Part shown: piece after piece, positions 3,536 to 24,593 of the stretch
Layout: every line of letters starts with the position of its first letter
How positions within the stretch are numbered: the stretch's first letter is position 1
IMG/VR virus record: IMGVR_UViG_3300047552_000856
Location: 1 to 25,271 of that record
Direction: 5' to 3' (one strand)
Length of the DNA: 25,271 bases
Source: a virus
Translations under genes and position numbers: made by a program
Notes under the pieces: model-generated
Told to the model about the DNA's origin: nothing
Database searches by the model: none
What the model saw: the letters and a program-made list of their open reading frames with translations, nothing else

Positions 3536-4635
3536 TAGTTATAATCCTGAAAAGTAATATCACCTAACAAATGCACTTCATTTACTGCTCCCACTTCATC
3601 ATCAATAGGGATAGTAATTTTATGCATAATCTCTCCGGCTGCGGATGATATTGCTTCATTCATTTGTGATAAAGCAATTATTTTTTGTGGTCCCCCATAT
3701 GCTCTAAATAAATCAACTAATCGTTCTCTTACATTAGCTTGTATAGTAGCAGTATTAGGATATAATTTTATTGTCATATTTACAGTTCTAAATTGTAAAG
3801 GGATCATAAATAATCCTGACTTTGCTGTTACAGGCATACCTGTCTCAAGATTAGTATTAGGATCATTATGATAAATAATATAATTTTTAACAGCAGTCAT
3901 TTCAGCAGCAGAAGGAATAATTGTTTCTTCATCATTATCCATTACAAATGCTAAACCAATAGTGCCTACCCCTTGATAATGTTCTATTACCCAGGAGCGA
4001 GTAACAACTCCATATTCTAAAGCCCAATTTATATAATCAAAATCAGTACCACCATGAGGGGCTGCTCTTTTTCTATTTAATAATCTCGTTCTATATGCTT
4101 CAACTTCTTCAATATCTGTGCCATTAGTTAATGCATTACCATCAACAGTTACTGTGCTATTTATACCTGAGACAGGAGAGACAAAACTTAAAATAGTTCC
4201 AGCATCTTCATTATATTCCTCTCCCACATTTTCAGCTGTGATAACTACATTAACAGTTCCACCAACTAACACCACAGCATCATCAATTATATAAATATTT
4301 CCACTTGCACTTTGTAATCTACTACCTTTATCAATTATTAGTCCTGTAGTACCTGTAGCTATAACTGAGCCTGTTGATTTACTTCCTCTATTACGCGGCA
4401 AACCAAATTCAGTTCCATGTTTATCTAACCATTCCTCATCAGCTGTAGATATTAAAAGATTGTCTTTATAATTTTGTATCGCGCCATATTCTTCATGCGC
4501 TACACCAGCATAAACTTTTCCTTGCACTTTTAAAATAGATCTTCTAAGTAGAGCACCAATGCCATCTAAATTAGCAGCAAGATCTGACTGTATGCGTGTA
4601 TTTATTTCTCTTAATGTTGGCCTTTCCCAGGGCAT
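3535..4635 (-). CDS. Baseplate J-like protein (Mu gp47 family), baseplate wedge
   Basis: The 366-residue protein matches the baseplate J / gp47 family (PF04865), the wedge component that ties the hub to the fibre-bearing periphery. Diagnostic stretches are the N-terminal MPWERPTLREINTRIQSDL, GIGALLRRSILKVQGKVYAGVAHEEYG, STADEEWLDKHGTEFGLPRNRGSKSTGSV, a GTTGLIIDKGSRLQS segment, GTDIEEVEAYRTRLLNRKRAAPHGGTDFDYINWA and WVIEHYQGVGTIGLAFVMDND. AGGAG lies about seven bases before the ATG. Length and order (gp46, gp47, gp48) are as in Mu-like tails. This is one of the firmest assignments in the window. Confidence 0.95.
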   Translation of the reverse strand: MPWERPTLREINTRIQSDLAANLDGIGALLRRSILKVQGKVYAGVAHEEYGAIQNYKDNLLISTADEEWLDKHGTEFGLPRNRGSKSTGSVIATGTTGLIIDKGSRLQSASGNIYIIDDAVVLVGGTVNVVITAENVGEEYNEDAGTILSFVSPVSGINSTVTVDGNALTNGTDIEEVEAYRTRLLNRKRAAPHGGTDFDYINWALEYGVVTRSWVIEHYQGVGTIGLAFVMDNDEETIIPSAAEMTAVKNYIIYHNDPNTNLETGMPVTAKSGLFMIPLQFRTVNMTIKLYPNTATIQANVRERLVDLFRAYGGPQKIIALSQMNEAISSAAGEIMHKITIPIDDEVGAVNEVHLLGDITFQDYN

Positions 4636-4644
4636 TTATTTCTC

Positions 4645-5118
4645 CTATGCTATATTTAAACTTAATTCATTTTCCCAAAGTCCCTTAAACTTGTAAGAAA
4701 CTTTTTGACCATTACTATAATGAGCATCAATAGTAAAACCCAATATATAATTAGATGGCTCTCCTATTTTATATGTTTCTGTATCAAAGTATTGCCATAC
4801 ACCATCATTAACAAACCATTGTAAACATTCTTTAATTGCTTCTTTAGCAAAGTTTAAAGCTTCTTGATCAGCTTTACCTCTTAATAACCAAAGACGAGAG
4901 CCAATTTTATCTCCATCATCTTCTAATAGATCTCCCCACCAGCCTTTTTTATCATTTTCATTTATCAATTGATCATCATCATTTGCCCTTCTATCACATA
5001 ACAAACTCATTAAAACAGCTGTGGTCATTCCATTCTCTCTGTATAAATCACCATTAGCATATTTAATGTCAAATTCTTTTAAATCTTCTCTATAAATTAT
5101 TTTTATATCATGTGCCAT
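4645..5118 (-). CDS. Mu gp46-like baseplate protein
   Basis: The 157-residue protein carries the hallmark sequence of the phage GP46 family (PF07409), related in role to gp25/GpW sheath-initiator proteins that nucleate sheath assembly on the baseplate. Visible motifs are TAVLMSLLCDRRANDDD (residues 33-49), KKGWWGD (57-63), GDKIGSRLWLLRGK (69-82), a helix with KECLQWFVNDGVW, and a final beta part. The start ATG follows an AAGGAA site. It lies between the 85-residue protein and baseplate J, the same relative order as Mu genes 45-46-47 apart from the extra small gene. Confidence 0.93.
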   Translation of the reverse strand: MAHDIKIIYREDLKEFDIKYANGDLYRENGMTTAVLMSLLCDRRANDDDQLINENDKKGWWGDLLEDDGDKIGSRLWLLRGKADQEALNFAKEAIKECLQWFVNDGVWQYFDTETYKIGEPSNYILGFTIDAHYSNGQKVSYKFKGLWENELSLNIA

Positions 5119-5128
5119 CTAATATTCC

Positions 5129-5386
5129 TTAACTTATTGTGCCAGTAGCAGTACCAGTACCAGGCCCACTAACACCAGGCCCCGTAGTTACACCACTAAC
5201 ACTTGTTACAACTACATTTGATGTAACTATAGCATTAGCAATTATATAAGCTACTATTGCTTTACCAAGTTCTTTAAACCCATCAGCTCGATTATAATTA
5301 TCTTCTTTTGGATCAGGCAAAGTAGCCACATAAGCATCCATAGCAGCAAGCATAGCTAATCCTAAAGCATCTCCATTTAATGCCAT
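5129..5386 (-). CDS. Small conserved-looking baseplate-region protein
   Basis: The 85-residue product starts MALNGDALG, has an alanine-rich helix (LAMLAAMDAYVATL), a second helix (GFKELGKAIVAYIIANA), and ends in a low-complexity V/T/G stretch from residue 55 onward with repeating TxxVSGVTTGPGVSGPGTG-type turns. A ribosome-binding site AAAGGAG sits seven bases before the ATG, and the gap to the spike gene is a single base, so it is a genuine operon member. Its place between the spike and gp46 genes suggests a baseplate or spike accessory part. The glycine/threonine-rich end may fold as an extended strand on a trimeric partner, but this is inference. I do not recognise a named family. Confidence 0.75.
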   Translation of the reverse strand: MALNGDALGLAMLAAMDAYVATLPDPKEDNYNRADGFKELGKAIVAYIIANAIVTSNVVVTSVSGVTTGPGVSGPGTGTATGTIS

Positions 5387-18633: not shown

Positions 18634-19392
18634 TTATTCCCCCCTCTTCTTACTTCTAAATACATGAGTACATCGACAGTTAATTACATTCTCGGCTGAT
18701 CCATCTGGATCACCTGGGAACATTAAATTCTCTCCCCCAACTGTAAAAGGTTGATCTATTTCAACTACTTGCCCAGATGCATGTCTATGAGCTATTCTTG
18801 TTCGTTCATCCTTAGCAGCTAACCACTCTTTAACTTGCATATTCAATTCTTTAGCCATTTCAAATGTTCCCTTGTTAGCTGTTTGATGGGTTTCTGTTCG
18901 TGCTATTCGATTAGCTCTTTTCATAGAATCAATTTTGCCTATGAGTGTTAATCGACTGGCTATTTCTTTATTTGACAGTCCTTCTTCAATGCCAATTCTT
19001 ATTATTCTTTTAATTCTATCCTTAGTTGTTTTATTTACACGAGTAACCTTTTTACCGACATTATTATTTATCCATCTATTTACATGATCCCAAAAAATAG
19101 ATCTTGTTCCTAAGTCATCCTTAGCCTGATTCATTAGCATAGTTGCAAACGCAGTTATTACTCTACGATAAAAAGTTATAAGTAGATTTTTAAAATAATT
19201 AGATTCTTTATCTATAGTGATATCTAAATAATTATCAGGTAATCCTATCTCAACAACACGAGCTGCTCTATTGTACTGTCTAAGCACATAAGCTCTTGAT
19301 CTTCTATAAATAAAAGGCTCAAATCTTTTAAGCATTCTATCAAATACAATCCAAGCGGTTCTTTTAGCTCTTGCATCATTTAGATTTATCAT
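18634..19392 (-). CDS. MuF-like minor head protein (SPP1 gp7 family), C-terminal domain conserved
   Basis: The 252-residue protein belongs to the head morphogenesis MuF group. The last third is diagnostic: EEGLSNKEIASRLTLIGKI (136-154), RIARTETHQTANKGTFEMA (162-180), then W190-LAAKDERTRIAHRHASGQ (191-208), a VGGENLMFPGDPDGSAENVINCRC stretch (218-241). The RTETH and PGDP.GSA..VINCRC motifs are typical. It is shorter than Mu gp30 and lacks any extra toxin-like C-terminal domain. It overlaps the portal gene by an ATGA junction. MuF proteins are packaged minor head components that help portal incorporation and may exit with the DNA. Confidence 0.93.
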   Translation of the reverse strand: MINLNDARAKRTAWIVFDRMLKRFEPFIYRRSRAYVLRQYNRAARVVEIGLPDNYLDITIDKESNYFKNLLITFYRRVITAFATMLMNQAKDDLGTRSIFWDHVNRWINNNVGKKVTRVNKTTKDRIKRIIRIGIEEGLSNKEIASRLTLIGKIDSMKRANRIARTETHQTANKGTFEMAKELNMQVKEWLAAKDERTRIAHRHASGQVVEIDQPFTVGGENLMFPGDPDGSAENVINCRCTHVFRSKKRGE

Positions 19393-20738
19393 TCGTTATT
19401 ACCTTCATCATTAAAACCATTAGGATCATTCGGATCATCTTCAGGAGGCATTACAAAGTTTTCATCTAACGGAACCATAGATGAAGAAACTAAAATATAA
19501 CTGCCTGGCTTTGTAGGATCTGGTCCTTCATATGCTTGCTTGCCGATCATTTCCCGCTTTTCATCTATAGTTAAAAAATCAGCTTCTTTTACTCTTTGCC
19601 ATATTGCATCTCTTCTTATTTGTAAAGCAGGCACCTTATCCAAAGAATAGTCATACATTAAAACAGATTGATTAGTTCCATAAGTTAATCCAAAATGCCA
19701 ATTATTTTTTTCATCTCTATAATAATTAAGTAGGGGTATAACACTATCTTCCCACATAGCTGCTCTTGCCTCTGCATAATTACTATAAGTATTATCTCCT
19801 GGAATTCCTAACATCATCGAAGGAACACCAAATGCTAAACTAATTCTTCTGGCTGTTTCTCTATTAGCTTCTAACCAATCCATTTCAGCAGGTGACCAGT
19901 TATAAGGTTTTGCATCTATTACACCTTCCTCAGATTCAAGAATTAAACTTTTTCCTGCTTCACTTGGTCCCGTTACTTCTGCAAACTGTTTGTCTAATCT
20001 TTCATATTGTTCATCAGTTAATACACCTTTAAATAATAAAAGCATTCCTGGTCTATTCTGATTTTGAATTAGGCGCATATTCCATTCAGTAGCTAAATTA
20101 TTTATGTCTATGTCTCTCGATGCCGGTTCAGTTGCACCCATACCAAAATATTTATTTACAGGGTTAAACATTTTAAGATGTAATAAATCACATTGTCCAG
20201 TTAATTGATCTACAGGCCAATTTACATTTTTACCATCATCCTGATATACATACTTTCCAATTCGACCATTCTTTTGATTTATTTCATAATTTACTTTATC
20301 TGGTTGATGTGTATAAATCTCTTTAGGATAAATATTATTTGGCCCGGATGTTGGTTTAACTCTTTCTTGGTAACTATTACCGGCTAATAATAAATAAGCA
20401 ATAGTTGAATAAACAATTGTAGTATATGATTCCCAGGGATTAGCTCTCAAAAGTATTTTATTAAATGGTGTATTAAATACTTCTGTTTTTTCTCCATTTG
20501 TTTTTTGCTCAAATAATCCCCAAGGAACAGAAGAGCAGGCATCAGCTATAAGTTTAATTGCTTTATAACCAATAACATTTTTCATGTAAGTTTCTTCACA
20601 GTATTTTTTATAATCTTTTTCAGGCCACATAACAGAGGGCAATCCTGTAGCTATAGCTGCAACACGAGATTCCTTCTGTTTAGGTAAAGTGATGTTTTTC
20701 TTTTTAATTTTATCTGTAAAGAAACTAACTATTCCCAT
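19389..20738 (-). CDS. Portal protein, HK97 type
   Basis: The 449-residue protein is the dodecameric vertex ring through which DNA enters. Landmarks: YMKNVIGYKAIKLIADACSSVPWGLFE (51-77), PWESYTTIVYSTIAYLLLAGNSYQERV, a WPVDQLTGQCDLLHLKMFNPV stretch, RDIDINNLATEWNMRLIQNQNRPGMLLLFKG, the clip and crown core ...LDKQFAEVTGPSEAGKSLILESEEG, and NREtaRRISLAFGVPSMMLGIPGDNTYSNYAEARAAMWEDSVIPLL, which is the signature 'FGVPP.LLG..G..TYSN..EA...F+...+.P' of HK97 portals. Its start has a weak AGAAAG site. It overlaps the downstream MuF gene by four bases. Confidence 0.95.
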   Translation of the reverse strand: MGIVSFFTDKIKKKNITLPKQKESRVAAIATGLPSVMWPEKDYKKYCEETYMKNVIGYKAIKLIADACSSVPWGLFEQKTNGEKTEVFNTPFNKILLRANPWESYTTIVYSTIAYLLLAGNSYQERVKPTSGPNNIYPKEIYTHQPDKVNYEINQKNGRIGKYVYQDDGKNVNWPVDQLTGQCDLLHLKMFNPVNKYFGMGATEPASRDIDINNLATEWNMRLIQNQNRPGMLLLFKGVLTDEQYERLDKQFAEVTGPSEAGKSLILESEEGVIDAKPYNWSPAEMDWLEANRETARRISLAFGVPSMMLGIPGDNTYSNYAEARAAMWEDSVIPLLNYYRDEKNNWHFGLTYGTNQSVLMYDYSLDKVPALQIRRDAIWQRVKEADFLTIDEKREMIGKQAYEGPDPTKPGSYILVSSSMVPLDENFVMPPEDDPNDPNGFNDEGNNE

Positions 20739-21040: not shown

Positions 21041-22444
21041 TCATGCAGCAATAAACTTCATAGCCGCTTTTAATCTTCTCTTATGACTACTAATATTTTC
21101 AATATATTCAGTCTGCCCCACGTAGCTTTTCCCGATTGCAAAATAGTTATTTGGGGCTGTATCAGCATCGAACGCTTCAATATGCGTACCTTGCCATAAA
21201 CCAAAGCCCGCGACTTTAATCGGAGATTTACTTGTAAAATTAGCGTTTGAAATATCAGCAACTTGTACACCGTCAATCCAAACCTGGATAATCGAAGCAG
21301 CATCTGCATACTTCACATAAGCTCTAACTTTAAAAGCTCTGTTTGTAGGAATAGCTGTTCCTGCCCCAGTCATATTAACAACTGTCCCTGTCCCCGCAGC
21401 ATTGTACCATGTTACTTTCCAGCGATTAATCGCTCCTTCTGTATGCTGACACTCAACTGAAAAAATATAGTCTGCACCAGTAGCAGAAAGATTCACCGAG
21501 CGCTGCGCCATAAGTAGCATATAACCTGGTCCCGGACTAGTCCCATCTTCATTATAAGCACACCCAGCAGGAATGTAGAATTCACCGTAAAAATTAGCTT
21601 CTGTTAATCCCGGTACCCCAACCTGTCGGCCTTCACGACATGCATTGCCGTTAGTGGTGTATTTTATCATTGGAGTACTGGCAATGGTAGCTAATTCGTT
21701 ATAGGTATTACCGGCAGGAGTAAGATACTCAATTTCTAAACTTGGTACATGTCCACCAAAGGAACTGCCAAGATTCAAACAACTGTATGATGCAGGGTTA
21801 TTTCCATCCGCTGCACACAAGGCGTCAACATCAGCCTGCTCTAAAGCATCACTATAAAGCCATAGATCAGACACCTCTACCGGAGCAGGATAATCTGTTG
21901 TTGCTCCAACGTTATAACCAAACAGATTAAAAGCACCTAACGGCATAGCAAAAGCCATCGCTGTACAGTCATCAAGCTTAGTTCCATCGAGCCAGATTTG
22001 CGTGGTCGTACCAACCCTGACTAACGTCAACCGATACCAAGTACCATACGCGTATCCCGTAACAGGTATTAATCTATAAGTAAGTGAAGCATTAAGACAA
22101 ATATCACCTGCCCCATAGAGCGTAAGATACCGGCCGCCTGTCCCTAAAAACCGGGCAATTGTATTCCCTGCTGCTCCATGCACACGAATCAAAAGCGACA
22201 TACTAACAGACGCATCTGGTAAGGTTGTTGTTAAACCGCTCTCACCAAGGTCTGTGCCACCGGCTAACCCTCTAAAGTTATTTGTTAAAAATCCGCGATT
22301 GCTAAGTCCTTTAACTTGCCCTTCTGAATAATGAATAGCTTGCCCTGTGCCAGGAAGTAAATGTGCCGTACCTATAATGTCTGAAACTTGCGTAGGCGAC
22401 ACATAAGCTCTTGTCATCGGGTAATGATGTGTTGGTGTTGCCAT
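21041..22444 (-). CDS. LamG/concanavalin-like carbohydrate-binding protein, probable virion surface protein
   Basis: The 467-residue protein begins with MATPTHHYPM and shows a laminin-G-like beta-sandwich at about residues 78-205: VSMSLLIRVHGAAGNTIARFL, then TWYRLTLVRVGTTTQIWLDGTKL and VEVSDLWLYSDALEQADVDALCAADG, the usual 'RLTLVR....+.+WLDG..+' and 'DLWLY..AL...D+..L' landmarks. The second half (about 225-450) looks like another beta-sandwich, with FYGEFYIPAGCAYNEDG, RAFKVRAYVKY and IIQVWIDGVQVADISNANF. GC content is visibly higher than in adjoining genes. Such lectin domains adorn phage heads or tails or bind host glycans. It stands between spanin-like and portal genes, an odd place for a fibre. 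Confidence 0.78.
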   Translation of the reverse strand: MATPTHHYPMTRAYVSPTQVSDIIGTAHLLPGTGQAIHYSEGQVKGLSNRGFLTNNFRGLAGGTDLGESGLTTTLPDASVSMSLLIRVHGAAGNTIARFLGTGGRYLTLYGAGDICLNASLTYRLIPVTGYAYGTWYRLTLVRVGTTTQIWLDGTKLDDCTAMAFAMPLGAFNLFGYNVGATTDYPAPVEVSDLWLYSDALEQADVDALCAADGNNPASYSCLNLGSSFGGHVPSLEIEYLTPAGNTYNELATIASTPMIKYTTNGNACREGRQVGVPGLTEANFYGEFYIPAGCAYNEDGTSPGPGYMLLMAQRSVNLSATGADYIFSVECQHTEGAINRWKVTWYNAAGTGTVVNMTGAGTAIPTNRAFKVRAYVKYADAASIIQVWIDGVQVADISNANFTSKSPIKVAGFGLWQGTHIEAFDADTAPNNYFAIGKSYVGQTEYIENISSHKRRLKAAMKFIAA

Positions 22445-22445
22445 A

Positions 22446-22952
22446 CTATTTATTTACCTTATAGTAATTAAAATTATTGTTATTCCAACTAACACCACTA
22501 TTATTGATGTTTCCGTTATTATCACTATTTTCTGTGCATCCGAATTCTTTAAGTATTTCTCCAAATCTTCTTGAGTCTGTTTCAACTTTTCTTCCGAGAT
22601 TATCAACTTCTTCTGATAATCTTCTAATGATAATTTCAGCTTGCTCAATTCGTCTGTCTTTTTCTGTTCCGTTTCTCTCAAGCTCTGCAATTCCTGATTC
22701 AAGTAATTGTATATGTCTGGTGCTTTCTGTTTCAAATCCTTGTAATCGTTCAATAGTTTCAATATGCTTTGTATTTGCTTCTGACAGTTCTTTATTGATA
22801 ATGAGTATATCTGATAATTCTGTTGTAATTTTATTAAGCTCTGCTTTATCTCTTCCTGACTGTACTGAGTATCCTGCCCATATACCAATAGCAAAGAAAA
22901 GAATAACTGAAAAACAAACAAAAATAAAAGGAACTTGTATTTTTTCATTCAT
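22446..22952 (-). CDS. i-spanin-like (Rz-type) inner-membrane coiled-coil protein
   Basis: The 168-residue protein starts MNEKIQVPFIFVCFSVILFF, one N-terminal membrane helix (residues 7-28), followed by a long coiled coil with heptad-like leucines and charges from about residue 34 to 135. It ends in an asparagine-rich tail (ENSDNNGNINNSG). That architecture is the one of phage i-spanins, which sit in the inner membrane with a periplasmic coiled coil. Codon choice is natural for this genome (AGA, A/T third positions). Start 22952 has AAAGGA ten bases upstream. Its stop is one base before the next gene's ATG, which fits tight packing. Almost its whole length is shared, in the +1 frame, with a second open frame at 22454-22948. 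Confidence 0.68.
   Translation of the reverse strand: MNEKIQVPFIFVCFSVILFFAIGIWAGYSVQSGRDKAELNKITTELSDILIINKELSEANTKHIETIERLQGFETESTRHIQLLESGIAELERNGTEKDRRIEQAEIIIRRLSEEVDNLGRKVETDSRRFGEILKEFGCTENSDNNGNINNSGVSWNNNNFNYYKVNK
22454..22948 (-). CDS. Nested +1-frame protein: signal peptide, coiled coil and C-terminal membrane helix
   Basis: This 164-residue frame lies wholly inside the i-spanin-like gene, shifted +1, as Rz1 lies in Rz. It starts MKKYKFLLFLFVFQLFFSLLLVYG (a signal-like segment with a possible cut after G24), has a long glutamine- and lysine-rich coiled coil (residues 30-138) and ends with a membrane helix (IIVVLVGITIILI). Its ATG makes an ATGA overlap with the holin-like stop and has an AAGGA site six bases upstream, arguably the better signal of the two frames. 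Differences from a classic o-spanin are the lack of a lipobox cysteine (the only Cys is at about residue 54) and the C-terminal anchor. It may be a u-spanin-like or partner protein. Confidence 0.65.
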   Translation of the reverse strand: MKKYKFLLFLFVFQLFFSLLLVYGQDTQYSQEEIKQSLIKLQQNYQIYSLSIKNCQKQIQSILKLLNDYKDLKQKAPDIYNYLNQELQSLRETEQKKTDELSKLKLSLEDYQKKLIISEEKLKQTQEDLEKYLKNSDAQKIVIITETSIIVVLVGITIILITIR

Positions 22953-23154
22953 TTTCCTTATTTCCTTTATTTTCTTTTATAATGCTTTTAGTGGCTATGC
23001 CTATCATAGGTATACCAATAAGAGGAGAAACAAATTTACATAAATCCAAATATTTATCCATTTTAATGTCATCTTGAGTAAAAAGAATAAGAAGACCAAC
23101 AATAAATATTGTTATAGCCAATAGCCATGTTAATTTTTTTCCTATTTCATTCAT
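22945..23154 (-). CDS. Small two-helix membrane protein, holin-like
   Basis: The 69-residue protein has two predicted membrane helices, residues 9-25 (TWLLAITIFIVGLLILF) and about 41-56 (FVSPLIGIPMIGIATK). A short charged loop with D28, D29 and K31 separates them, and the tail is highly charged and lysine/glutamate-rich (IKENKGNKENE). Small size, two helices and the charged C-terminus are the usual class II holin layout. Its position directly before the spanin-like pair supports a lysis role, although no endolysin is recognisable near it. Start 23154 overlaps the terminase stop (TAATG) and has AGAGAGGAAAG upstream. The function is inferred from topology and context alone. Confidence 0.6.
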   Translation of the reverse strand: MNEIGKKLTWLLAITIFIVGLLILFTQDDIKMDKYLDLCKFVSPLIGIPMIGIATKSIIKENKGNKENE

Positions 23155-24593
23155 TATATCTTTCCTCTCTTACTACTTAATCCACCAATAGATCTAACAC
23201 GTACACCACCTACTAATCCATGCATAACTTCTTTGTACGCTCCACTACTGGAATCTATTTGATCAGCGAAGTCACCATCTGGAAAATCCTCTGCTTCATC
23301 TATATAATTTAAATTCCACTGCCCTTTTACTAAATATACATAACCATCGCCTGCTTTATTAGCATAAGGCATAGCTCTAATTACTTTAGATCCTTTAGGT
23401 CTAATACTTTTAAAAGGAATATCAAAAAATACATTCTGCCTCATGTCAGATATTTGCCAATCTCCTGCTTGTCCAGGATCATGCTCCACTACTGTTATAA
23501 TATCGGGATATTCCACTCTATCCATATCAGCAGTCTGTCTTAATATTTTTCTTAATGCATTAGGATCTTTACGAATTCTTATAACATCATCAATCATAAT
23601 TTTTATTTTATCTTTATGAGCAATCATACGTACACCGGCTGTATAACATGGTTCTTTTGTAATTTTACCTTTATCACTGGTACTTGCCATATCCCAATAT
23701 CTAACTACTCTACTTATTTCATCTTTAGGCCAAACATGATTTACTAATTGCCACCATTCACGCATAAAAGTAGTAGCATCTTTTCTAACATTCCAATCAC
23801 CTTCCATCAATTGTTGACGAGTGACTGGATCTAAATTACTTAATGAGTCTCGATACTCATCTGCCTCGAGGTATGGATTATCAGATAAACCAGCTGGAAT
23901 AAATGCTACACCTTTTTTTCTGGTTTTAGAATCAACATATTTATTTTTTATCTCATTATGTGATATACCACCGGGATTACTTGCTAATCTAAAACGTAAT
24001 GGTACATCATGACCTTTTAATCGTCTTAAACGAGAGAATAAATAAATAATTTGATTCCATCTGAGATCCCCTGCCTCATCAAGACCTATAAATTGAAATT
24101 CAGCTGATTTATAACGTAAATGATCTTTTTCTTTATCTAAATAACCGAATGTAATAGAAGCAGGCTTCCCATCTATATATTTACCACTTTTTAATTTTAT
24201 CTTTGTAGGAAATAGCCAGGTCTTTGCTTGACCGTCCCATTTTGCATCTGTGCCACCAAGCCATGTATCCGCTCTTTCTAACAGAGCCCCAGGCATAACT
24301 AAATTCTGATATGTGTCTCTGATAAGCAAAGCGGCATAACCAGGAACATCCACATATTGCAATGCTGCCATAAGTAGAGCATCTGATTTCCCCCCGCCTG
24401 CTGCTCCACCGTAAAAAGCATCTTTTATATCTAATAATAAAAAAGCCTGTTGCTTTGGTGTAGGAATATGAGGAATATAATCAGTTAGTTTTGGTGTCAA
24501 TGTCTGTTTCAATTCTTCGTACTGGTTCTTTTCTAATGAATGCACCAGACTTGGAGAGAATTGATAAGACATTTGACATTCTGTCTTCGTCAT
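23154..24593 (-). CDS. Terminase large subunit (packaging ATPase/nuclease)
   Basis: The 479-residue motor protein has all expected motifs. Walker A is GGAAGGGKSD (62-71), Walker B is FIGLDE (168-173) and the coupling motif is SNPGG (206-210). The nuclease acidic residues are Asp301 (RYWDMAS), Glu370 (VVEHDPGQAGDW) and Asp442/Asp445 (DGDFADQID). The LTPKLTDYIPHIPTPKQQAFLLL segment (32-54) is a conserved N-terminal adenine-binding-type region. ATG 24593 is supported by AAAGGAAA with a proper spacer, although this places the start 113 bases inside the small-subunit gene. No later ATG before the Walker A region exists. It cuts and pumps DNA through the portal. Confidence 0.96.
   Translation of the reverse strand: MTKTECQMSYQFSPSLVHSLEKNQYEELKQTLTPKLTDYIPHIPTPKQQAFLLLDIKDAFYGGAAGGGKSDALLMAALQYVDVPGYAALLIRDTYQNLVMPGALLERADTWLGGTDAKWDGQAKTWLFPTKIKLKSGKYIDGKPASITFGYLDKEKDHLRYKSAEFQFIGLDEAGDLRWNQIIYLFSRLRRLKGHDVPLRFRLASNPGGISHNEIKNKYVDSKTRKKGVAFIPAGLSDNPYLEADEYRDSLSNLDPVTRQQLMEGDWNVRKDATTFMREWWQLVNHVWPKDEISRVVRYWDMASTSDKGKITKEPCYTAGVRMIAHKDKIKIMIDDVIRIRKDPNALRKILRQTADMDRVEYPDIITVVEHDPGQAGDWQISDMRQNVFFDIPFKSIRPKGSKVIRAMPYANKAGDGYVYLVKGQWNLNYIDEAEDFPDGDFADQIDSSSGAYKEVMHGLVGGVRVRSIGGLSSKRGKI

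Follow-up and report, generated by a model that had tools for sequence, protein, structure and literature searches.

Can one stretch of phage DNA be read in two frames to give two different membrane proteins, and could these proteins form a lysis pair of the Rz/Rz1 kind in which neither partner carries a lipid? This question is raised by two superimposed open frames (hereafter, frames A and B, encoding proteins A and B) in the IMG/VR virus record IMGVR_UViG_3300047552_000856, of which the full 25,271-nt stretch (hereafter, the window) was analyzed. The window has a GC content of 33% and represents only part of a genome. Its packaging and structural genes are those of a phage whose contractile tail is of the Mu/P2 type. 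As given in a preliminary description of this DNA, and reproduced here from coordinates, frame A (168 codons) and frame B (164 codons) lie on the same strand in a +1 relation and share 495 nt (Table 1). Their starts are offset by 4 bases (ATGAATGA) and their stops are 8 bases apart, just ahead of the next gene (ATG at 22444), with B spanning from ~0.01 to ~0.98 of the length of A. We found that the shared 495 bases very probably serve both frames and yield two distinct membrane-anchored coiled-coil proteins.

The evidence for dual coding comes from single-sequence tests, which support it well. Using codon usage from the 28 other genes of the window as a null model, we computed the exact probability that one frame is open given the protein encoded by the other. 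As the criterion for overlapping genes demands, each frame is open beyond chance given the other: under the phage codon usage, log10 P is -7.6 (~2.5e-8) for B given protein A and -10.0 for A given protein B. The null is well calibrated, with 708 expected and 689 observed +1 stops in the 28 other genes (within 3%), and A has no +1 stops compared to 11.8 expected. The longest open stretches in those 28 genes are 80 codons (+1) and 99 codons (+2), and the longest same-strand overlap found elsewhere (211 kb of other loci, GC <=40%) is 336 nt. Codon choice follows the same pattern. NTA-type Ile/Leu/Val codons precede a purine in only 1 of 23 cases in A, compared to 597 of 1205 in the other genes (Fisher’s test: 5.5e-6), and Ile/Leu/Val codons ending in TA are used normally in A when a pyrimidine follows. 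Similarly, none of 28 T-ending codons of B stands ahead of AA, AG, or GA (Fisher’s test: 4e-5). The codon choice of A makes a chance origin of the open B frame unlikely.

An alternative is that A is the sole gene and B a chance open frame that owes its hydrophobic ends and coil to the composition of A; with A’s own codon mix, the probability of an open B frame rises to 10^-3.6. The case was also chosen by a reader out of much sequence. Against this, the probability under genome codon usage is 2.5e-8, and A’s own codon mix already reflects the avoidance of NTA before purines. Two candidates of other kinds were rejected. An antisense open reading frame (ORF) over A/B (22477-23043, + strand, 188 codons) was weighed as a third gene, and the composition of A accounts for its lack of stops (P ~0.04 given A; not significant). 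A sequencing frameshift does not fit because both frames are open from end to end and a second contig (L001) carries identical A and B proteins.

Both A and B are presumably translated. Each frame has its own Shine-Dalgarno (SD)-like site, as previously described (AAAGGA, best spaced for A; AAGGA, best for B), and SD sites are clearly in use across the genes of this phage. Given its 6-nt distance from AAGGA, the start codon of B holds the better-placed site; furthermore, it overlaps the stop of the upstream 69-amino-acid gene as ATGA, an arrangement that allows coupling. Both features of the B start argue against A as the sole gene. Better SD spacing might instead suggest that B is the sole gene and A the chance open frame, and the hydropathy profile of A does follow automatically from the residues of B (testing the features of A given B has little power, since second codon positions of A are first positions of B). 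We consider this very unlikely, because the probability of A being open given B is 10^-10 and because the GC periodicity of the phage is found in A (0.42/0.32/0.17 by codon position; other genes: 0.45/0.39/0.18) and not in B, where it is phase-shifted (0.33/0.17/0.43). The codon score of A likewise falls inside the range of the other genes, and that of B outside. These properties, which would also be expected if A were the sole gene, suggest that B was likely overprinted on A.

The architecture of the two proteins was predicted from hydropathy, inspection, and AlphaFold2 models of single sequences. Protein A has a single N-terminal transmembrane segment (TM; ~residues 8-26), a long coil (36-136, with predicted helices at 36-93 and 98-136), an Asn-rich tail, and one periplasmic Cys (C138). 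It was modeled as a long helix with lower confidence than B. An N-terminal TM followed by a periplasmic, usually coiled-coil domain is what defines an i-spanin, and on this model A appears to be an i-spanin-like type II protein. Protein B begins with a hydrophobic, signal-peptide-like segment (residues 1-24, ending in ...LVYG before Q), which is presumably cleaved, and has a C-terminal TM (~141-163). Between them, AlphaFold2 predicts a helical hairpin (31-68, 77-135) with a block-mean predicted local distance difference test (pLDDT) score of 92-96 over residues 41-110. The hydropathy profiles thus agree with the earlier account of an N-anchored A and of a B with a signal-like N-terminus and a C-terminal anchor. 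The claim that B has no lipobox cysteine is also correct (its first Cys is C55).

Because the wobble base of A is the second codon base of B, the synonymous choices made in A set the hydropathy of B. In samples that preserved protein A and kept frame B open under genome codon usage, the mean hydropathy of the middle of B was +0.06 (sd 0.22), compared to -1.12 in the real sequence, and none of 2000 samples was as low. With A’s own codon mix, the polarity of this region is marginal, at P = 0.07 (mean) and 0.04 (peak window), as it would be if A were the sole gene. The hydrophobic ends of B, in contrast, are a weak argument for a second protein: the sequence of A yields them by default (P = 0.08-0.11 and 0.73-0.75), and since they lie within the range of the genome-usage null, they are not evidence by themselves. 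The feature of B that goes beyond the default of A is its polar helical middle.

Searches with tblastn (A and B against viral_contigs and phages; B against plasmids; A against genome_contigs) returned the near-identical contig L001 as the sole match to A/B. Apart from the identical A and B proteins, L001 differs from the window by one substitution over 6.8 kb of shared DNA (99.98% identity). A match of A to L042 (E=0.02-0.04) was discarded, as it falls in a soluble protein of 249 amino acids upstream of TerL that is probably TerS-like. Foldseek against viral models gave no match at E<=0.001.

More distant relatives of the phage have a conserved gene order and TerL, portal, capsid, and sheath proteins of ~40-57% identity. 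In the window, the interval between TerL and portal holds (on the minus strand) the 69-amino-acid holin-like protein, A and B, a LamG-like spike protein, and a protein of 92 amino acids. The corresponding interval of relatives encodes lysis enzymes, including an SLT transglycosylase (L131), an M15 peptidase (L124), and a GH108 protein (L121), as well as holin-like membrane proteins. Among ~15 such intervals (the window not counted), three contain a +1-overlapping gene pair, X and Y (L131; L241 with its copy L244; L269), in which X has an N-terminal TM and Y runs from a signal peptide through a helical region to a C-terminal anchor, with no N-terminal Cys. In other relatives, lipoproteins are found in this interval (L211, L217, L132). 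The topology scan also picked up a few short pairs among the structural genes of L142 and L246/L264, which look like chance matches and hint at its false-positive rate.

The X/Y pairs share with A/B their position between TerL and portal, the +1 frame, and the order of an N-anchored partner followed by one with a signal peptide and a C-terminal anchor. They overlap less (~60-218 nt, counted from the probable start of Y, compared to 495 in A/B), and in L269 the C-terminus of Y is an outer-membrane-like beta segment and not a TM. Since the X/Y sequences are unrelated to A/B, it is the design that recurs. This recurrence of one topology among unrelated sequences of relatives strengthens the idea of a non-lipoprotein partner. 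The Y genes of relatives follow this design as unmistakably separate genes with AGGAGG sites, and taken together with the codon and start-site evidence they leave a sole gene A, with B open by chance, as an unlikely explanation.

Table 1 Features of the A/B locus and of the overlapping X/Y pairs in relatives (positions refer to the window unless a contig is named)
Feature	Position	Strand	Remarks
Terminase large subunit (TerL)	23154..24593	-	phrog_979, E=9e-95; left border of lysis interval
69-amino-acid protein, holin-like	22945..23154	-	two hydrophobic segments, by eye
SD-like AAAGGA	22963..22968	-	10 nt before A ATG
SD-like AAGGA	22955..22959	-	6 nt before B ATG, 2 nt before A ATG
Frame A, 168 codons	22446..22952	-	GC by codon position like other genes of the phage
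Frame B, 164 codons	22454..22948	-	wholly within A, +1 frame
LamG-like spike protein	21041..22444	-	PF13385, E=2e-4, under curated cut-off; immediately downstream of A/B
Portal protein	19389..20738	-	PF04860, E=2e-55; right border of lysis interval
L131 pair	X 3668-3958, Y 3741-4097		AGGAGG site
L241 pair (copy L244)	X 4764-4976, Y 4915-5277		AGGAGG site
L269 pair	X 3566-3757, Y 3684-4133		Y ends in outer-membrane-like beta segment

A/B resembles lambda Rz/Rz1 in that the first gene contains the second in its +1 frame, the first product is a type II inner-membrane coil, and the locus is probably one for lysis. The separated, overlapped, or embedded two-gene arrangement of two-component spanins is found in A/B. 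So is their periplasmic Cys, a trait that u-spanins lack (PMC6139136), with one in each protein. Nesting is more complete than usual: in ~70% of embedded spanin pairs the inner gene starts ~0.4-0.5 along the outer gene (PMC6139136), whereas B starts ~0.01 into A. The main difference concerns the lipid. Rz1 is an outer-membrane lipoprotein, whereas B has no lipobox and ends in a TM. Of the proposal that A and B are a lysis pair of the Rz/Rz1 kind, the lysis-cassette part is supported by position, given the endolysins in the TerL-portal interval of relatives, and the lipobox of an o-spanin is not found. With the lipobox looked for and absent, A/B cannot be filed as an i/o spanin; the pair may still act like one. 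A/B is best described as a candidate variant of the known Rz/Rz1 kind of pair, with a lipid tag on neither partner.

A single protein could do the same work if B alone were u-spanin-like, with an unrecognized outer-membrane attachment, and A were an accessory. The exported N-terminus, periplasmic domain, and C-terminal TM of B are indeed those of T1 gp11 u-spanins, lipid aside. T1 gp11, however, is a beta-rich protein that carries an N-terminal lipid and has no partner; B lacks the lipid, is helical, and shares its DNA with A. Of the two features that define u-spanins (an N-terminal lipoylation signal and a C-terminal TM), B has only the TM, its first Cys being residue 55. The u-spanins known so far are also beta-rich and without a periplasmic Cys (PMC6139136), and B is helical with one. 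We therefore regard this explanation as highly improbable.

That both proteins are real and form a spanin-like lysis pair, in which one partner is a type II inner-membrane protein and the other is type I and not a lipoprotein, is in our judgment an evenly balanced proposition. Several observations weigh against it. The lipoprotein signal that defines an o-spanin is absent from both A and B, and a lipobox ORF of at least 40 amino acids does not occur in any frame of the window. Both partners are anchored in the inner membrane, with no visible tie of the complex to the outer membrane, and a diderm host is itself presumed. No endolysin was recognized in the contig, which is a partial genome. Pfam, PHROG, and NCBIfam gave only scattered generic coiled-coil matches to A and B, under cut-offs, and the X/Y pairs of L131, L241/L244, and L269 have no detectable sequence similarity to A/B.

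The inner-membrane anchoring of A and B, the lack of a lipoprotein, and the lack of a recognized endolysin beside the pair would also fit two proteins that are both made and do not disrupt the outer membrane, such as regulators of the holin/antiholin type, helpers resembling releasin, or envelope proteins for superinfection exclusion. Lysis modules commonly hold small membrane proteins of other roles. For example, the Mu releasin gp25 (PMC9239132; DUF2730) is a non-spanin, non-holin membrane protein of the Mu-like lysis module. It combines an N-terminal TM with a cytoplasmic domain and has nearly no periplasmic part (PMC9239132). Such a role seems rather unlikely for A/B, given that two-component spanins have this design of two +1-overlapping genes in a lysis interval and that this interval holds lipoproteins in other relatives.

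In the spanin-like pair favored here, A would be an i-spanin-like type II protein of the inner membrane with an N-terminal anchor and a periplasmic coil, and B would be exported via its signal peptide, fold into a periplasmic helical hairpin, and be held by its C-terminal membrane helix (type I). After the holin and endolysin had acted, the coils of A and B would come together and, in the manner of Rz/Rz1 though without a lipoprotein anchor, break or fuse the envelope and thereby disrupt the outer membrane. How the pair would reach this membrane is a matter of speculation: the signal-peptide end of B may contact it, or the coil pair may act mechanically once the peptidoglycan is gone. Overprinting on A probably gave rise to B, and selection on the wobble bases of A would keep B open. 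More tentatively, A/B and the pairs of relatives may represent a class of type II plus type I inner-membrane lysis pairs, overlapping in the +1 frame between terminase and portal (almost completely in the window), that opens the envelope without a lipoprotein.

In one survey, ~13% of Gram-negative phages had no recognizable spanin. For such phages, the almost completely nested A/B pair and the three pairs of like design but lesser nesting in relatives are concrete candidates, all of which lipobox-based spanin searches would miss. The A/B locus is also an extreme case of overlap, with 495 bases common to two structured membrane proteins.

Regarding the neighboring genes, the 69-amino-acid protein that adjoins A/B is probably holin-like; its match to DUF5699 is weak (19.1 bits; cut-off 29). 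Of all window genes, the LamG-like spike gene on the other side departs most from typical codon usage and is highest in third-position GC (0.31), which suggests recent acquisition. In relatives (L121, L124, L131, L132, L211, L217, L233, L241, L269), the TerL-portal interval is a variable cargo site of 0.9-9.8 kb with lysis and small spike-like genes. An outer-membrane-like beta C-terminus following a signal peptide or N-terminal TM was found in three proteins in or near the lysis interval (L269:3684-4133, ...GFGWLF; L124:12253-12813, ...KVSYRW; L268:3265-3741, ...DAMVRF), and judging from these sequences, it is possible that they are spanin-like, with a beta anchor replacing the lipid. Upstream of TerS in L001, an ORF (3-893) starts with many NEVWNEVRNEV-type repeats. 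Lastly, the portal match is broken by ~1.1 kb in three relatives (L123:909-3377, L241:5654-8038, L246:5071-7419), and the ORF of L123 runs on in frame (837 amino acids), as for an intein or other in-frame insertion.
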